DNA from: a virus
Reading direction: 5' to 3' (one strand)
Length of the DNA: 57,201 nt
Virus record (IMG/VR): IMGVR_UViG_3300021373_000198
Span: 1 to 57,201 of that record
The position numbers and the translations under genes were made by a program. Each line of letters starts with the position of its first letter. The first letter of the stretch is position 1. Below the pieces are notes generated by a model, which was given only the letters and a program-made list of their open reading frames with translations, was not told where the DNA came from and did no database searches. Shown here in pieces: positions 7,063-20,391 of this stretch.

Positions 7063-7317
7063 TTATTTATTCTTGTTCTTATGCTTCCACGCAGTAGCGT
7101 ATGCAATACCCTCTTTATCTTTAGGATAGTTCTTCTTAATGTGCTTTACCATCCTTTCGTACTTCTTACCAGGAGGAGCGACTTCATCGAGTTCAACTGA
7201 CTCTTTTTGCTGCTTCTTCACGGCACCGAGAACATACTTCTTATGCTTCTTTTTAGCAGAAGCATCTTCCGCTCCGTCTTTGATGTCAGGCATCACTTCG
7301 ACGGAAGCGGCTTTCAC
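7063..7317 (-). CDS. small basic conserved protein
   Basis: An 84-residue lysine-rich protein. The C-terminal segment (PPGKKYERMVKHIKKNYPKD followed by GIAYATAWKHKNK) is a short helical module that I recall as common in marine phage virion or head-associated proteins. No enzyme motif is visible. The ATG overlaps the stop of the upstream gene by 4 bases, so the two are coupled. Confidence 0.75.
   Translation of the reverse strand: MKAASVEVMPDIKDGAEDASAKKKHKKYVLGAVKKQQKESVELDEVAPPGKKYERMVKHIKKNYPKDKEGIAYATAWKHKNKNK
7064..7071 (-). promoter_or_regulatory. late promoter box AATAAATA
   Basis: Late-type box 27 bases upstream of the start at 7037, sharing bases with the TAA stop of the gene before it. 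A 5-bp hairpin (GGGCA / TGCCC, 7046-7060) lies between the box and the start codon. Confidence 0.55.
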
Positions 7318-8360
7318 TTTTTTTCTTCTTCAATCTCCCCACGAAGCTCTGCCTGCTCCTTCATCTTCTTTTTGGTGTTGATGATCTTGGAGACTTTCTT
7401 GCGGCGAGCAAGTAGATACTTGTCGGACTTGTCATGATCACCGTCATTGTCAACGTCCTTGTCTTCCTTGCCTACAGGATCAAGTTTCTTCTCACCAAGA
7501 ACTTCTCTGTTCTTTGCGTCGTTAACAACGTGCTCATGAACTTCACTGATCATGATCTCAAGGTCTTCTACAGGTACATTATGGAGAATGGTGGTCTCTC
7601 TCATAATATCATAGTGAGTTACTGTTCCATCCTCAAGCATGGTGTGCTCACCAGGGATGACAGTGTACTCAAGACCTTCTTTCTTGACTTTCTTTGCACA
7701 GTTGTGCTTCTTAACCATCTTGCCAGACTTGGGGTCCTTCTCAAAGTATTCCTTAACGCAGTTATCAACACGCTTGCCACCCTTCATCTTGGTGCCCATT
7801 TGCTTGTATCCTTTCCAACAAGCTTTACCATCGAGACCTTTTTTCTTCTCCATCATGTATGTGACACCTTCGAGTTCAAACTCATAAGTTGTACCAACCA
7901 GTTCTTCATGGACTGTCTCTTCTTTCTTCATAGCAGCCTTATCTTTCTTCTCACACTTGGAGCACCCTTTTCCTCCACAATAAGAGCAGGCTTCCTCACG
8001 GGCAACCACCTTCGTGGTGTCTTTAATTTCTGATCCGTGAGATTGTTTGATACCTGTACCAGCACGAAGATTGGGAGCAGGATCAGGCGCACCAGAATTT
8101 GTTTTGGGATCCTTTGTAGAGAAATCATCTGCTTTCGCCTCCTTTCCTGCGAGGGATGGGATTGATGTAGAAGAATCAGCACCACCTGCAGGACCAGGAG
8201 TTGGAAGTTCTTTCTTTTCTGGTGCTGGGATTGTAGTAGCCTCTTTAATTGTGGACTGTTGGAATCCTTCTCCACCCATCCATCTACCATATGCTTCAAT
8301 CAAAGCATTTGAATAAGCATCATTATGTTGCACACTATTGACTGGTTTTTGTCTTTCCAT
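7314..8360 (-). CDS. multi-domain protein with Cys4 zinc motif and EF-hand-like loop
   Basis: A 348-residue protein of unknown function, probably virion or head-assembly related. After a Pro/Ala/Ser-rich linker (residues 45-100) it has a C-x2-C-GGKG-C-x2-C knot (Cys125, 128, 133, 136) like the DnaJ zinc repeats. Near residues 302-313 Asp/Gly residues fall at positions 1, 3, 5, 6, 7, 9 and 12 of a canonical EF-hand or dockerin calcium loop. The C-terminus is a charged helix. A TATAAATA late box lies 31 bases upstream. Confidence 0.78.
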   Translation of the reverse strand: MERQKPVNSVQHNDAYSNALIEAYGRWMGGEGFQQSTIKEATTIPAPEKKELPTPGPAGGADSSTSIPSLAGKEAKADDFSTKDPKTNSGAPDPAPNLRAGTGIKQSHGSEIKDTTKVVAREEACSYCGGKGCSKCEKKDKAAMKKEETVHEELVGTTYEFELEGVTYMMEKKKGLDGKACWKGYKQMGTKMKGGKRVDNCVKEYFEKDPKSGKMVKKHNCAKKVKKEGLEYTVIPGEHTMLEDGTVTHYDIMRETTILHNVPVEDLEIMISEVHEHVVNDAKNREVLGEKKLDPVGKEDKDVDNDGDHDKSDKYLLARRKKVSKIINTKKKMKEQAELRGEIEEEKK

Positions 8361-8613
8361 TGTTGAAAATACTACTACTTTTCCTTTCTTTATTTATAGT
8401 GTCCGTCACGTTAACGTGCCGCACATCCTTAATCCACGCACGAAACATGTCTCCTGACTCGGTAATTGCGATGACATAGTTGACACCAGCACGATGAATC
8501 GTGCCTTTCTCACCAGTGATAGACGACATGATAACATCACCCTCCACAAAGACATCACCTTGTCTATGTTGCTGACGCAGTGCTTCTTCGCGTAGTGTCT
8601 TGAAATTTTTCAT
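8335..8613 (-). CDS. small conserved protein of unknown function
   Basis: A 92-residue protein starting MKNFKTLREEALRQQ. The middle (GDVFVEGDVIMSSITGEKG, then TIHRAGVNYVIAITESGDMF) looks like a small beta-barrel of the SH3/KOW kind: short strands with Gly turns. The last 25 residues are polar and probably disordered. It overlaps both neighbours, so it is translated with the HxGH nucleotidyltransferase gene upstream. Its 3' end contains the late box of the next gene. Confidence 0.75.
   Translation of the reverse strand: MKNFKTLREEALRQQHRQGDVFVEGDVIMSSITGEKGTIHRAGVNYVIAITESGDMFRAWIKDVRHVNVTDTINKERKSSSIFNNGKTKTSQ
8391..8398 (-). promoter_or_regulatory. late promoter box TATAAATA
   Basis: Perfect T4-late box 31 bases upstream of the start at 8360, inside the 3' end of the preceding gene. 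Confidence 0.7.
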
Positions 8614-9173
8614 TTATAGTTGTCTGGCAAATTACTCTTAATCTCTGCCATAAGTGCCCTACAATCCTTCTCCGATAACGCTTTAGGTATACCCTGGCGG
8701 AATGTTTTGAAGTCGTTGGCCGCAGCAGCACGTCTCATTTTAGTACCCGAGATAGCAAAAGTGTCTCCGTCAGCATCTCTGCTGCCCGAAGACTCAATGC
8801 GGATACTTCTAAAGGAGTAATCCTTACCATTATATTTATGGAGGAACTGCATGGCATTAACTCTATCAGAACCCACCAAGAATACTACATCATCATACCC
8901 AGCGAGCATGAGTTCTTGTAAGATTGCAACAGGTTGTTTGGGTCCCGAAAATATTTTACCACGATGTTGCGGAAACATCAAGTTCATGTAGTGCAATTTA
9001 CGATCAGGAGGTAGAGGGTTATTACCTTTAGCATCAACAGACTGTGAGATGTAGATGCGATAGTCATGCTGACCAGCAGCACGTTTCACGCCATTGAAGT
9101 TATCTTCATGACCTGTTGTAGGTGGTTGGAACCTACCAAATGTGAAGTAACATACCTTTCCTTCTAACGCCAT
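8610..9173 (-). CDS. HxGH-family nucleotidyltransferase (NMNAT/cytidylyltransferase-like)
   Basis: A 187-residue enzyme of the nucleotidyltransferase superfamily that includes NMN adenylyltransferase and CTP:phosphate cytidylyltransferases. Motif 1 is GRFQPPTTGH (T/HxGH at residues 19-22), and the second nucleotide-binding motif is ISGTKMR at 141-147. The length matches a stand-alone single domain. The substrate cannot be read from the sequence; NMN is the first guess. It overlaps the ligase-like gene upstream by 10 bases, forming a cassette with it and the nuclease-like gene. Confidence 0.85.
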   Translation of the reverse strand: MALEGKVCYFTFGRFQPPTTGHEDNFNGVKRAAGQHDYRIYISQSVDAKGNNPLPPDRKLHYMNLMFPQHRGKIFSGPKQPVAILQELMLAGYDDVVFLVGSDRVNAMQFLHKYNGKDYSFRSIRIESSGSRDADGDTFAISGTKMRRAAAANDFKTFRQGIPKALSEKDCRALMAEIKSNLPDNYK

Positions 9174-10357
9174 TTCTTCTCGATAGTAAAATTATTGTAC
9201 GCGAACTCAAGACGGTTAACAAACTTGATCATACTACCGTCTTTATGCATAACATATCCTTCAGGACTGGTTACCTTATAACCTTTATCTGTTTGAACAA
9301 ATGTCTTGAAAGTTTCAAGGTGATCTAATTTATCTATAACCATTTGTTTGATAGCCTGCAACTCTTTATAGAGTGCAATCATCGTCTTGAAACTGTATAT
9401 GTTATCTAATAGGTAATTTTCACTCTGATATACCAAGTTTCTTTTCTTTGTAAGAGTAGCAACTGTCTTTATCTTGGACAGTTCCTTTGTCATCTTGGCG
9501 TGGTAGAAGTTTACCAGTTCATTTATTGTCTCATCAACGTTGGAGATTGCCCTCGCATTTTTAATTTCAGAATTAAAGAACTGCTTGAGGGATGAGGATA
9601 TGTGGAGTTTTTTCTCTCCTGAATTGCCAAAATTGTCCACCAACTGATCCAGGAAAGGACCAGCAAGAACACACATGCGCTCAATCTTCTGAACATGGTT
9701 GTCAAATGTACGGAGTTCTGCTGTAGAAAATCCCACTCTGTCCATAGGTGTATCGTTTTTGACGACCAATACGTTACTATTGCCTTCTACTTTTGCACCT
9801 GCCATGGCCTGCATATTTTCTAATGCAGTACCAGTGTAGTGAGTGTGAAATACTACCCCAATTTTAGCAGTGTTTGCAGCTTTGCCAATGGGATGATCAA
9901 CTGGTATACCATATGTAATAGTATTAGGACGGAATGTATACAACTCTTCGCCGTCTACAGTTTCTTTCTTCAAATCTGTGGTGAATAGCAGGTCTCCCTG
10001 CACCACACCCTTGATACCTAGTTGACTAAAATATTTTAGAGCAAACTTTAGTTTCTCTGCTAGATCTCCTTGATACCATTCATCAATACTCTCCTCGGTG
10101 AAGCAGATCTTTGGTTCTGTTTTGTTAAAAACTGACTTTGTTCCTACAAAGAACATCTCTGTCAGCGGTTCTACACCACAAACAACTGAAGGCGCACCAT
10201 CCCACTTGGTCTGCATGAATCCGCTGCTCTCTTGCTTGCCCAGCATCTTGCGAAGTTCTTTCAAGAATGAAACTGCTGCCATACACCCCTCGGTGCCGTA
10301 GTTCAGCATCTCATCTTCCAAGTGTTCTAGGTGTTTGAGTTGTTTAATGTTTGCCAT
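9164..10357 (-). CDS. ligase-type (KxDG) covalent nucleotidyltransferase-like protein
   Basis: A 397-residue protein usually listed as hypothetical in related phages. It has the ordered motifs of the ATP/NAD ligase and mRNA-capping superfamily: motif I TKWDGAPS (Lys51 as candidate AMP-accepting Lys), GVVQGDLLF (GD at 121-122, like motif III), IGVVFHTHYTG (like IIIa), EGYVMHKDG (366-374, motif IV) and MIKFVN (Lys378, motif V). A helical insert of about 180 residues separates IIIa and IV, unlike ordinary ligases. Assignment rests on motifs read by eye. It starts on the last base of the nuclease-like gene. Confidence 0.7.
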   Translation of the reverse strand: MANIKQLKHLEHLEDEMLNYGTEGCMAAVSFLKELRKMLGKQESSGFMQTKWDGAPSVVCGVEPLTEMFFVGTKSVFNKTEPKICFTEESIDEWYQGDLAEKLKFALKYFSQLGIKGVVQGDLLFTTDLKKETVDGEELYTFRPNTITYGIPVDHPIGKAANTAKIGVVFHTHYTGTALENMQAMAGAKVEGNSNVLVVKNDTPMDRVGFSTAELRTFDNHVQKIERMCVLAGPFLDQLVDNFGNSGEKKLHISSSLKQFFNSEIKNARAISNVDETINELVNFYHAKMTKELSKIKTVATLTKKRNLVYQSENYLLDNIYSFKTMIALYKELQAIKQMVIDKLDHLETFKTFVQTDKGYKVTSPEGYVMHKDGSMIKFVNRLEFAYNNFTIEKKWR

Positions 10358-11658
10358 TACGCCAGCAGATAGTTTACCGTTCCTTGACTAGCATCAATGT
10401 TGCTGGTAGATGCCTTTGAACCAGAAAAACTCAAGTTCATCTGTGCAGCTTTACTCATCCTGAAGTACACTTCTCCCTTCAAGAACTTACTATCATCCAA
10501 GTTTGCTTGATAGAAATCCTTTCCAGCGATCAATCTCTTTGCTTCGTTTAGAGATGTGGTATCTTTATTTAATCTGTCTGCTATACCCCTTGATAGAATA
10601 GCGGTCAGTGATTTACCACCCTTTTTGCCGTTGGTGATCAGCACTTGAGCCGATGACTCTGTACCATCACCACCAGACTTGACATACTGCAGTGCCTTGA
10701 GCAGGACAGGAGCATGTTCAGCAGGTTTTCCTGCCTTAAATGCCTTGAAAACATCGTATGGTGTGTTGGTGTCCACGCCTAGGATCTGCTTGACTCCATA
10801 CTGATATACTATCTCCTTTCCCTTGCGTGTGGGGTCGCCACCGACCTCTTCAGCAGCTGTCACAAGGTCTTTCAAAACACAATCGGACAAACTACTCTTG
10901 TATTTTATAGCAACTGGGATGATGTTGGCCCAGACAGATGCCAGAGCACCTCTACCATACTTGGATGAGATAGGAACCTGGGTGCCATCTTCTGCTAAAA
11001 ACAGCGAGTCAACACCCGCAAACTGTGGATCATCAGGTACTAGGAAGCACTTATTATTTTTGGGAAGAATGTTTTGAGATAGGTGTCCCTGTGCTGCGTT
11101 GGACATACCAATATATCCCACCAACATCTCACCAACGTAGGTTCCTAGTTGTTTTTTGATACCATCTACTACTGCTGCAGACCATGTGAAATTATAGTTG
11201 CCATCCAGATTACTCATGAAGTAATCCACAACTTGTTCGGTCACATAGTCAGGCACCGATGGTTCGTTTTCCAGTCCATGTATAACTGATGTAGCAATCT
11301 GTTCTGGTGTAGTAAAACATTTACACTTTACATCAGGTATGCCCAGGATAGAAGGCACAATTTCATTGCTACCTTTTGATATAAGTTTCGTTGCTTCGAT
11401 CTGCATCCTGACATTTGTCTTACCAGGCTTGTCGATGCAGTCGATATGGAGTTCACTACTGTTATTACCCCAACTGATTTGCAGTTTGGTATTGTACTGG
11501 TCGCCGCCGAACACAGTGATAGGTGTTCCGTGCGATAGTTTCACGCCAGAGGCAGTGGTATTTTTTGTTTCAGTTGCCTTACTGTTGGCCTTAACAAAAG
11601 TATCAACGGTCCTACCTTTGAAGTAGTGCTCCCATTTTACTCTACCAGTCTTTGCCAT
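10357..11658 (-). CDS. unknown protein with PD-(D/E)XK-nuclease-like pattern
   Basis: A 433-residue protein without a family I can name. Its central part has the spacing of a PD-(D/E)XK nuclease core: Glu177 in a predicted helix (YVGEMLVGYIG), Asp217 in a strand (AGVDSLFL), then PISSKYG with Lys233 where Asp/Glu-x-Lys is usual (here Ser-x-Lys). The rest is alpha/beta with a Gly/Ser-rich C-terminus. A strong ribosome binding site (GGGGAGGA) precedes the ATG but lies in a terminator-like hairpin. It heads the cassette with the ligase-like and HxGH genes. Confidence 0.7.
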   Translation of the reverse strand: MAKTGRVKWEHYFKGRTVDTFVKANSKATETKNTTASGVKLSHGTPITVFGGDQYNTKLQISWGNNSSELHIDCIDKPGKTNVRMQIEATKLISKGSNEIVPSILGIPDVKCKCFTTPEQIATSVIHGLENEPSVPDYVTEQVVDYFMSNLDGNYNFTWSAAVVDGIKKQLGTYVGEMLVGYIGMSNAAQGHLSQNILPKNNKCFLVPDDPQFAGVDSLFLAEDGTQVPISSKYGRGALASVWANIIPVAIKYKSSLSDCVLKDLVTAAEEVGGDPTRKGKEIVYQYGVKQILGVDTNTPYDVFKAFKAGKPAEHAPVLLKALQYVKSGGDGTESSAQVLITNGKKGGKSLTAILSRGIADRLNKDTTSLNEAKRLIAGKDFYQANLDDSKFLKGEVYFRMSKAAQMNLSFSGSKASTSNIDASQGTVNYLLA

Positions 11659-11689
11659 AAAAAAATCCTCCCCTATTATTTAGAGGAGG
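11659..11689 (-). promoter_or_regulatory. terminator-like hairpin that encloses a late box and sequesters the ribosome binding site
   Basis: Minus strand: CCTCCTC, a 9-base loop TAAATAATA, then GGGGAGG, A and seven T, directly before the ATG at 11658. The stem is 7 bp with one G-T pair. The 3' arm is the Shine-Dalgarno of the 433-residue gene. The late box CTAAATA (11677-11683) spans the last base of the 5' arm and the loop. Transcripts from upstream would fold or terminate; those started at the late box lose the 5' arm. Confidence 0.7.
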
Positions 11690-11695
11690 TATAAA

Positions 11696-11780
11696 CGGAA
11701 GGGGTGGGATTCGAACCCACGGAAGCTTTCACTTCGCTGGCTTTCAAGACCAGAGCCATCAACCACTCGACCACCCTTCC
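11696..11780 (-). tRNA. tRNA-Ser (anticodon UGA)
   Basis: An 85-base class II tRNA. The acceptor stem is GGAAGGG / CCCTTCC with a G discriminator, the anticodon stem CTGGT / GCCAG encloses loop CTTGAAA (anticodon TGA, reading UCA), the long variable arm is GAAG-TGAAAG-CTTC, and the T arm is GTGGG-TTCGAAT-CCCAC. CCA is not encoded. It is the only tRNA seen in the window. The small gene upstream ends inside its 5' half. Confidence 0.95.
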
Positions 11781-19413: not shown

Positions 19414-19556
19414 TATTTAAATACAGCAGTCACACCAAGAACTTTGGCATTAGGATTACGTGCCAGGGCAACCTCCCTGGCTTCTTGATAGTTGCGAGCG
19501 ATCACCTCTTCGGTGAAGACCTGACCTGCAACGTAGAGTTTCACTTCACACTTCAT
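19413..19556 (-). CDS. very small conserved protein between dam and gp62
   Basis: A 47-residue frame, MKCEVKLYVAGQVFTEEVIA then NYQEAREVALARNPNAKVLG, short enough to be missed by gene callers. It has a beta-beta-alpha-beta look with no charged bias. The stop overlaps the gp62 ATG by one base (TAATG) and the start overlaps the dam stop by 11 bases, which fills a gap exactly in an otherwise gapless operon. Function unknown; translation coupling to gp62 is likely. Confidence 0.75.
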   Translation of the reverse strand: MKCEVKLYVAGQVFTEEVIARNYQEAREVALARNPNAKVLGVTAVFK

Positions 19557-20391
19557 AATTTAAAAGGACGAGTTCCTTGCGAGACGCTTGATCTGTATTA
19601 TAACTCCCCACGGAGCGCATGGTGTAAGTGTGTGCAAATTCTGCTACTGTCCACCCTTCGAACCTTTCTTTAACAAGATTAGACGAGTTGTAAGATATGC
19701 ATTGAGGACCAATAAAACGGTCACAATCAGCAGCAAAGGTGTCATGATCGAAGCACTTGTGCATACTACCTCGCCTTCCGTATAAGTTAGATTTAATATC
19801 ATAGGGCGGGTCGAGGTAAGTGAAGGTGTCTCGATCGTCGGTAAGTAGCTCTTCATAAGATAGGTTAGTAATTTTCCAATTCTTAATCATCAACGAGAAG
19901 TCTGGGAGTCTATCAATGCCTCGCATTGAGAAATTGCTCTCTGAAGCCTGCTTTGAGAAGGATGAGGATTCAGTGAGACCAGAAAAAGAGCACTTGTTAA
20001 TAACGTAAAAAGCAACAGCACGAGATAGATTGGATTGATCACCTTGTGTTCCATTTAGATAGTCCTTTGATTGCTTAAACAATACTTCTGCAGATGTAGG
20101 ATCACAGTGAATATACTTTAGCTGCACAAGTTGATCTCTCATCTCACGACCGTGATCTCTCAACTCACACCAGAAGTTATAGAGAGGTTCATATAAATCG
20201 TTGACCCAGATATCCAATTTAGGATACCTTTTAGACACTTCAATTGCTACGCTACCACCACCCAGAAAAGGCTCACGATACTCCGTTGCCTGGGAAAGGT
20301 CTGGGAGGAATCGGAACAGGTTTGCCAGTGCTCTGCTTTTCCCCCCTGGATAGCGGAGTGGTGTCTTCAGTGATTTTAAAGTTTGGGTCAT
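19546..20391 (-). CDS. dam: DNA adenine methyltransferase (Dam family)
   Basis: A 281-residue N6-adenine methyltransferase of the D12/Dam class. The SAM-binding motif is TPLRYPGGKSRALANL near the N-terminus, FLGGGSVAIEV follows as motif I, and the catalytic motif IV is TYLDPPYD. The family usually methylates GATC, protecting phage DNA from restriction or marking it; the target cannot be read here. The ATG lacks a Shine-Dalgarno and lies inside the previous gene, which overlaps it by 119 bases. Confidence 0.93.
   Translation of the reverse strand: MTQTLKSLKTPLRYPGGKSRALANLFRFLPDLSQATEYREPFLGGGSVAIEVSKRYPKLDIWVNDLYEPLYNFWCELRDHGREMRDQLVQLKYIHCDPTSAEVLFKQSKDYLNGTQGDQSNLSRAVAFYVINKCSFSGLTESSSFSKQASESNFSMRGIDRLPDFSLMIKNWKITNLSYEELLTDDRDTFTYLDPPYDIKSNLYGRRGSMHKCFDHDTFAADCDRFIGPQCISYNSSNLVKERFEGWTVAEFAHTYTMRSVGSYNTDQASRKELVLLNYEV

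Follow-up and report, generated by a model that had tools for sequence, protein, structure and literature searches.

The internal proteins of bacteriophage T4 are reported to reach the capsid through N-terminal leaders of 10–19 residues, in which residues 4 and 7 are important for targeting and which gp21 cleaves after L/I-x-E (PMC9026906). They form a sequence-diverse, injected cargo, and Ip1-3 act as restriction inhibitors (PMC9026906, PMC12373910). Virions of the chlorovirus PBCV-1 package virus-encoded restriction endonucleases, thought to degrade host DNA early, and the endonuclease genes adjoin those of their virus-encoded DNA methyltransferases (PMC7019647). Here, we analyze a three-gene cassette on the minus strand of the 57,201-base IMG/VR virus record IMGVR_UViG_3300021373_000198 (the window, meaning the whole of this stretch), which encodes a nuclease-like protein, the ligase-like protein DUF6267 and an HxGH-superfamily nucleotidyltransferase (Table 1). 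Relatives of the cassette proteins carry leaders with an L/I-x-E site, as T4 internal proteins do, but the cassette proteins look like enzymes rather than inhibitors, and the window copies lack a leader. The chlorovirus case differs in its eukaryotic host and in the adjacency of its methyltransferases, none of which lies next to the cassette's nuclease, and the part of that source available to us describes no ligase-like or HxGH partner (PMC7019647). Singly, the cassette components have counterparts: DUF6267 shares the order KxDG...EG...K and the nucleotidyltransferase core with T4 RNA ligase 2 (Rnl2), Naegleria RNA ligase and ATP-dependent DNA ligases, and the nuclease recalls Type II restriction enzymes. 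The families DUF6267 (phrog_455, T4-GC71) and T4-GC190, to which the cassette's proteins belong, were named previously, and T4-GC190 is reported as a core cluster, shared by every one of 16 cyanophage genomes under comparison (PMC3037559). In the open-access literature, supplements excluded, we found no description of the cassette, of a nuclease slot or of DUF6267 function, and no tested function for DUF6267 or the nucleotidyltransferase. We file the cassette as a variant of injected phage proteins whose single families are known by name.

The window also holds uvsX, gp41, mazG and tRNA-Ser, and because this gene order matches that of Synechococcus phage S-CAM3, whose DUF6267 is 78.6% identical to the window's, we regard the window as a fragment of a T4-like cyanophage. 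A preliminary description of this DNA, made by eye from its letters, had proposed three adjoining, slightly overlapping genes for a nuclease, a covalent nucleotidyltransferase and an HxGH enzyme. The three open reading frames (ORFs) are present, and the three biochemical classes stood, to differing degrees; what that description missed was an exchangeable nuclease slot and possible capsid delivery. Comparison of relatives shows that the gene beside DUF6267 occupies a hypervariable slot in which nucleases, as judged from their sequences, have been swapped repeatedly. We tentatively favor, at somewhat less than even confidence, a reading in which the cassette is an enzyme kit that virions carry, at least in part; its cutting component would be an exchangeable restriction-type nuclease, and the HxGH enzyme would partner DUF6267, an end enzyme that is charged with a nucleotide. 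T4-like marine phages would build this kit late in infection, and all or part of it would travel inside the capsid into the next cell, where the PD-(D/E)XK nuclease would cut host or competitor DNA without the phage's modification. DUF6267 would charge Lys51 with a nucleotide and act at ends, its most likely task being to seal or cap nicks in the genome of the phage itself, and the HxGH enzyme would make or recycle the nucleotide cofactor or modify the end. We infer catalysis, substrates, targets, self-protection and timing, and, for the phage of the window in particular, delivery.

The nuclease slot beside DUF6267

By tblastn, the sole match of the window nuclease among 50,697 phage records was Cr30 (two records), and a repeat search with a distant nuclease relative again returned Cr30 as its sole phage match, while DUF6267 matched 468 and the nucleotidyltransferase 530 of these records, mostly cyanophages. 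We attribute the scarcity of nuclease matches relative to DUF6267 to replacement of the slot gene in place. The upstream neighbor of DUF6267 is usually a protein of 300–620 amino acids (aa) across 180 loci, a count that takes in the window and the reference loci and was not deduplicated. The 140 distinct slot proteins formed 14 clusters separate by BLAST, six of them singletons, one of which (L102) is Cas4/RecB-like by eye. This set omits proteins shorter than 200 aa, loci without an upstream ORF and loci L003, L121, L163 and L166, and adds three downstream genes; L003 and L121 carry a candidate further downstream, past the nucleotidyltransferase, while L166 shows D...EVK and L163 shows no candidate within view. 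The 68 distinct loci with a DUF6267 at least 74% identical to the window's drew their slot proteins from five clusters (36, 13, 10, 8 and 1).

A conserved D...SxK was found in 14 of 14 slot subclusters with at least two members; the match in subcluster s12 lies at a dubious place, though a different SxK stands in register when its profile is aligned. Among clusters with at most 30% conserved columns, the pattern occurred in 11/11 slots (s12 included) versus 1/13 controls, the single control being a relative of the window nuclease. With all clusters taken together, 12/37 controls carried it, and in 11 of these the conserved columns exceed 30%; the largest control cluster, a single-linkage merger of 243 proteins (60 aligned), could hardly match. 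E-x-K replaces SxK, by eye, in a few slot genes (L166, L241, L257 and L264). In profile comparison by hhalign, the window cluster paired with c6 at 88.6%, their E, D and SxK aligning in register; c6 also paired with c7 (76.0%), part of c0 with c3 (67.4%), and L151 with L153 (34.7%). None of 280 slot–control pairs reached 30%. In cluster c2, all three proteins tested match the PADLOC Type II restriction enzyme PDLC03459 (3.2e-11, 1.7e-12 and 4.5e-6). The slot proteins tested outside c2 gave no restriction-enzyme match in PADLOC, only weak matches of P0003 to ZorA2 (0.0014) and of L027 to PDC-S05 (0.013); the window nuclease did not match the Type II restriction-enzyme profile, nor did a PADLOC search with the window's three cassette proteins yield a match.

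The slot was occupied in 140 of 142 distinct loci of the first set (set 1) with at least 1 kb upstream, the set on which the slot families had been defined. A second set (set 2), fetched after the rule was formed, comprised 40 loci of the compact clade, 36 genome-contig loci and three reference records, and contained 77 loci with DUF6267, not deduplicated. The genome-contig loci (34 from metagenome bins, judged by title, one from the Prochlorococcus genome AG-418 and one from an isolate of Nonlabens) are taken to be phage contigs, and a plasmid search with the DUF6267 of S-SM1 gave no match. A slot-family nuclease was recognized by profile in 51 of the 77; 12 others have less than 0.8 kb upstream, and five have another nuclease-like or related upstream protein (L241, L257, L263, L264 and L265). 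Replacement in place next to DUF6267, which is conserved, and in the window's case next to a tRNA as well, could also suggest selfish homing-type endonucleases that move from phage to phage, using a site that tolerates them. A homing gene typically varies between presence and absence at its site, and the near-complete occupancy in set 1, together with leaders on some slot proteins, makes this explanation highly improbable.

In the window nuclease, Glu177, Asp217, Ser231 and Lys233 are invariant across 11 aligned proteins, five of which are only 31–33% identical to it, which bears out the residues that the preliminary description had picked as a PD-(D/E)XK-like core. An acidic residue, Asp and (E/D/S)-x-Lys thus follow in order, but Ser replaces the usual Glu two residues ahead of the Lys, a departure from classic PD-(D/E)XK and Type II enzymes. 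The AlphaFold2 (AF2) model (mean predicted local distance difference test score, pLDDT, 78.2; predicted template modeling score, pTM, 0.65) had MspI as its best VIA match, at a weak Z of 6.1 (199 aligned, root-mean-square deviation [rmsd] 6.0, model residues 119–431); the remaining VIA matches listed place residues ~1–85 onto small, mostly SH3-like domains. Foldseek against the PDB gave EcoO109I and MspI at E about 0.4, not significant. The structural comparison that the preliminary description had suggested yielded a restriction enzyme at the top, and support from solved structures for the alpha-beta-beta-beta-alpha-beta core fold of the superfamily was weak. Neither a profile search against solved-structure sequences nor an NCBIfam search with the nuclease produced a match. 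Among viral models, nine matches reached E 0.001 or better, led by a 406-residue protein that, judged by its length, is probably the Cr30 protein (1.3e-26), followed by six unnamed or uncharacterised proteins, an Atu_ph07 protein (1.3e-5) and S-PM2 GC841 (1.5e-5, 13% identity). Since the S-PM2 cassette has GC841 as its slot-type protein, a predicted fold is common to two slot families that BLAST does not connect.

The conserved ligase-like and HxGH partners

DUF6267 has Lys51, Asp53 and Gly54 (KWDG), Gly121-Asp122, Glu366-Gly367 (EGYV) and Lys378 invariant in 76 proteins, down to 26% identity. The motif order KWDG, GD, EGYV and Lys378 that the preliminary description had put forward was thereby confirmed, and Lys51 passed the conservation check that it had proposed. 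The layout runs from KWDG through QGD, ending at 122, and a helical stretch at about 205–345 to EGYV at 366–369 and Lys378, so that KxDG, EG and a distal Lys appear in the order of the ligase/capping superfamily. The AF2 model (pLDDT 87.8, pTM 0.78) returned, among the 50 VIA matches listed, 45 named as ligases and five end-joining complexes, whose aligned chain is taken to be DNA ligase IV, the outcome the preliminary description had looked for; the Z scores of 5.2–8.0 can reflect a common structural arrangement. The best of those listed was Naegleria RNA ligase (Z 8.0, 176 aligned, rmsd 3.8), with T4 Rnl2 at Z 6.8 and DNA ligases at Z 6.1; alignments in the list covered up to 190 residues. 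Foldseek alone against the PDB was weak (T4 Rnl2, E 0.39, not significant). Because the VIA list is uniform and the motif order agrees, we accept DUF6267, on its model and sequence, as a predicted member of the covalent nucleotidyltransferase (ligase/capping) superfamily. It is not a canonical DNA ligase, since the model has no C-terminal OB-fold domain, only a single helix after the last motif; the long helical stretch and identities of 7–14% in the matches listed further set it apart from the ligases named above. Against solved-structure sequences, DUF6267 had only chance matches, its profile finding helical chains, fibrinogen among them, at no better than 0.007, and an NCBIfam search gave no match. 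In S-SM1 (L190, 17296–18270) and other cyanophages the protein is compact, with 324 aa versus 397, presumably through a smaller helical insert. As a separate observation, residues 9–15 read HLEHxED, with H9, H12 and E14 invariant, conserved like the catalytic motifs.

The RNA ligases at the head of the VIA list would suit an RNA repair set, in which DUF6267 would be an Rnl2-like ligase mending RNA cut by host nucleases and the slot nuclease would be RNA-acting or accessory. We consider this improbable: DNA ligases score within or near one unit of T4 Rnl2, and one slot cluster, by its resemblance to restriction enzymes, speaks for DNA.

The nucleotidyltransferase has (H/T)xGH followed by an ISxTxxR-type motif and matches phrog_3041. 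The TTGH and ISGTKMR motifs noted at first sight proved sound, with Gly21-His22, Ser142 and Arg147 invariant in 15 proteins; the first His of HxGH is Thr in the window protein and His in some relatives. Relatives are annotated as cytidyltransferase, NMN adenylyltransferase (NMNAT) or T4-GC190. The window protein scored 13.7 bits against Pfam CTP_transf_like, below the curated cutoff of 21, which P-HM2 (28.5) and S-SM1 (30.4) pass. A profile search against solved structures gave UPF0348 MJ0951 (4.3e-5), a NadR-family chain (0.013) and S-layer noise, and a single-sequence search against them gave no match. Of 107 distinct DUF6267 loci that extend at least 1.5 kb downstream, 100 have a nucleotidyltransferase either within 3 kb downstream of DUF6267 on the same strand or, judged from ORF length, fused to it, in keeping with the co-occurrence that the preliminary description had proposed to check. 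This linkage and the standing of DUF6267 as a Pfam family argue against a chance arrangement. The S-PM2 fusion (L003, 6992–8771) has its reading frame split in the record, and from lengths of ~590 aa we infer that L175:5995-7770 and L186:34-1806 are fusions as well.

The proteome papers on S-CREM2 and S-SCSM1 propose a role in NAD metabolism (PMC10665884, PMC9602691), in which the protein would be a virion-supplied NMNAT and its neighbors incidental. The NadR similarity is weak, whether by model (0.0062, far below the model's cutoff) or by structure profile (0.013), and NMN/NaMN specificity is only putative. The near-constant proximity to DUF6267 also argues against incidental neighbors, and we hold this explanation to be very unlikely.

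Virion carriage and capsid-targeting leaders

Virion delivery of the nucleotidyltransferase in relatives is well supported. The protein is reported in virions of S-SM1, as T4-GC190 (PMC3037559), S-SZBM1 (PMC9146016, Table 1, 30 virion proteins), S-CREM2, with 3 unique peptides (PMC10665884), and S-SCSM1, as NMNAT (PMC9602691), and all four of these proteins start with a leader. Delivery of the slot nuclease is supported by one record label: SSCSM1_90, which adjoins the S-SCSM1 nucleotidyltransferase, is labeled a virion protein and is a slot-type nuclease with PADI...SLKK and no evident leader. For DUF6267 in distant relatives, delivery is predicted from leaders. The modular protein SSZBM1_139 is likewise reported in S-SZBM1 virions (PMC9146016), and, in the passages considered, no cassette member was identified among the 14 virion proteins reported for S-CREM1; Atu_ph07 likewise yielded no virion evidence of use here. 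Separately, S-CREM2 ORF12, annotated as a CRISPR-Cas9 nuclease, is reported in virions with 28 unique peptides (PMC10665884, Table 3).

T4-like leaders stand just ahead of the conserved domain start in many relatives, including the DUF6267 of Stenotrophomonas phage DLP_6. In set 1, a leader was found in 31 of 67 distinct N-termini of DUF6267 less than 70% identical to the window's and in 26 of 83 nucleotidyltransferases, versus 0/50 for UvsX, 0/65 for gp41 and 0/62 for the modular protein. An earlier rule without internal Met codons gave DUF6267 22/56, nucleotidyltransferases 20/79, MazG 0/53, gp41 0/61 and UvsX 4/47. Under a slightly looser rule in set 2, leaders were found in 18/51 DUF6267 and 6/38 slot nucleases. 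Family members associated with virions would also be expected of catalytically dead structural or scaffold head proteins; the invariance of catalytic-type residues down to 26–33% identity makes this very doubtful.

Several observations weigh against a virion-carried kit built around an exchangeable nuclease. No N-terminal leader was found in any of the window's three cassette proteins, nor in the seven distinct N-termini from DUF6267 proteins that share 70% or more identity with the window's (0/7). By rule, only 1 of 98 slot nucleases in set 1 has a leader, those of L104 and L151 being seen by eye only. The leader rule was written after set 1 had been viewed, set 2 was counted without control genes, and MazG, a control, matched in 7/57, in our view false positives that arise when internal Met codons are tried as well. 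Table 1 of the S-SZBM1 study does not list S-SZBM1_141 (DUF6267) or _142 (slot) among its 30 virion proteins (PMC9146016), and the authors of the S-CREM2 and S-SCSM1 studies allow for carry-over through CsCl purification (PMC10665884, PMC9602691). DUF6267 is separable from its partners, since the virion-detected nucleotidyltransferase of S-CREM2 has no DUF6267 beside its gene and the S-SCSM1 nuclease and nucleotidyltransferase adjoin without DUF6267 between them. As for the slot, nine set 2 loci have upstream DNA but no nuclease beside DUF6267 (L236, L246, L247, L248, L250, L252, L254, L256 and L269), most profile pairs between BLAST clusters, namely all those other than the links given above, fall below 30% in hhalign, the nuclease model only weakly matches solved structures, and the window's slot has no linked methyltransferase.

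Some of these points would suit the reading of the preliminary description, a cytoplasmic cassette for nucleic-acid end processing or repair, used in the infected cell, with the virion signals of relatives secondary. The leaderless DUF6267 of the window's clade, its absence from the S-SZBM1 list and the position of the cassette next to mazG, gp41 and uvsX all fit. Repair alone leaves the hypervariable nucleases unexplained, however, and published proteomes of four cyanophages place the nucleotidyltransferase in the virion, while DUF6267 itself bears leaders in many relatives. We regard cytoplasmic repair as unlikely on balance, though it carries appreciable weight.

Neighboring genes and implications

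Downstream of the nucleotidyltransferase, the 8335–8613 protein matches positions 207–276 of the phrog_395 (cytidyltransferase) profile (1e-9), and a region like it trails the nucleotidyltransferase domain in longer relatives, such as that of S-SM1; its N-terminus is loosely leader-like. The 7314–8360 protein shares short modules, by eye, with the virion proteins SSZBM1_139 and SSCSM1_92. Lys-rich modules in window positions 7063–8360 (KACWKGYK...GGK..NCVK, DVDNDGDHDKSDKYL) were seen by eye in virion proteins of other cyanophages. In distant relatives, adenylate kinase genes with a T4-like capsid leader directly follow DUF6267 (L132:1244-1831, L140:1864-2439 and similar; Pfam ADK 1.9e-37 and 3.6e-44 for these two), which would fit AMP release by a ligase, or AMP turnover; the preliminary description had suggested NAD or AMP as a possible currency. 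Polynucleotide kinases were considered for the P-loop genes after DUF6267 and rejected, Pfam identifying adenylate kinase (L132, L140) and an AAA_33/zeta-like protein (L127). Other genes seen after DUF6267 encode that zeta/AAA_33-like P-loop protein (L127:7351-8025) and proteins that are HAD-like by eye (L180:6435-7049 and L096:3443-4144), those of L127 and L180 having leader-like N-termini.

The late-promoter scan is suggestive at best. TATAAATA, which resembles the T4 late-promoter consensus, has 3 matches in the window versus 1.96 expected and is weak alone, and CTAAATA is not enriched (7 versus 7.4 expected). ATAAATA has 18 sites on the minus strand of the window, all on the coding strand, versus 8.9 expected, and lies within 60 nt upstream of 6 of 54 listed ORF starts. 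It is possible that the N6-adenine methyltransferase protects the phage's own DNA.

Table 1. Features of the cassette and its surroundings in the window
Feature	Position	Strand	Details
Exchangeable nuclease-like gene, 433 aa	10357..11658	-	SH3-like N-terminal domain (about 1-80), then PD-(D/E)XK-like region E177, D217, S231-x-K233
DUF6267 ligase-like covalent nucleotidyltransferase (predicted), 397 aa	9164..10357	-	PF19782 5e-127
HxGH-superfamily nucleotidyltransferase, 187 aa	8610..9173	-	phrog_3041 2.5e-69
Small protein, 92 aa, overlaps end of nucleotidyltransferase gene	8335..8613	-	phrog_4808 5e-48
Lys-rich modular protein, 348 aa	7314..8360	-	phrog_4359 2e-97
tRNA-Ser(TGA) between mazG and nuclease slot	11696..11780	-	
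TATAAATA, T4 late-promoter-like	8391..8398	-	30 nt before ATG of 7314-8360
CTAAATA, weak promoter lead	11677..11683	-	18 nt before nuclease ATG
D12-class N6-adenine DNA methyltransferase	19546..20391	-	PF02086 1e-27; unlinked to cassette

A bolder form of the virion-carried kit, which we think rather unlikely, is a modular DNA weapon, in which the conserved ligase-like and HxGH enzymes would be coupled to one of many interchangeable, virion-loaded restriction-type nucleases; the nuclease would destroy host or rival DNA on entry, and the co-delivered enzymes would seal or cap phage ends. If true, a swap of the nuclease would alter who counts as kin. More generally, the nuclease slot and its link to capsid delivery give a testable role to common marine virus genes, and the slot is likely a reservoir of unexplored restriction-type nucleases. 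The cassette may be a phage counterpart of the restriction enzymes that algal viruses package.

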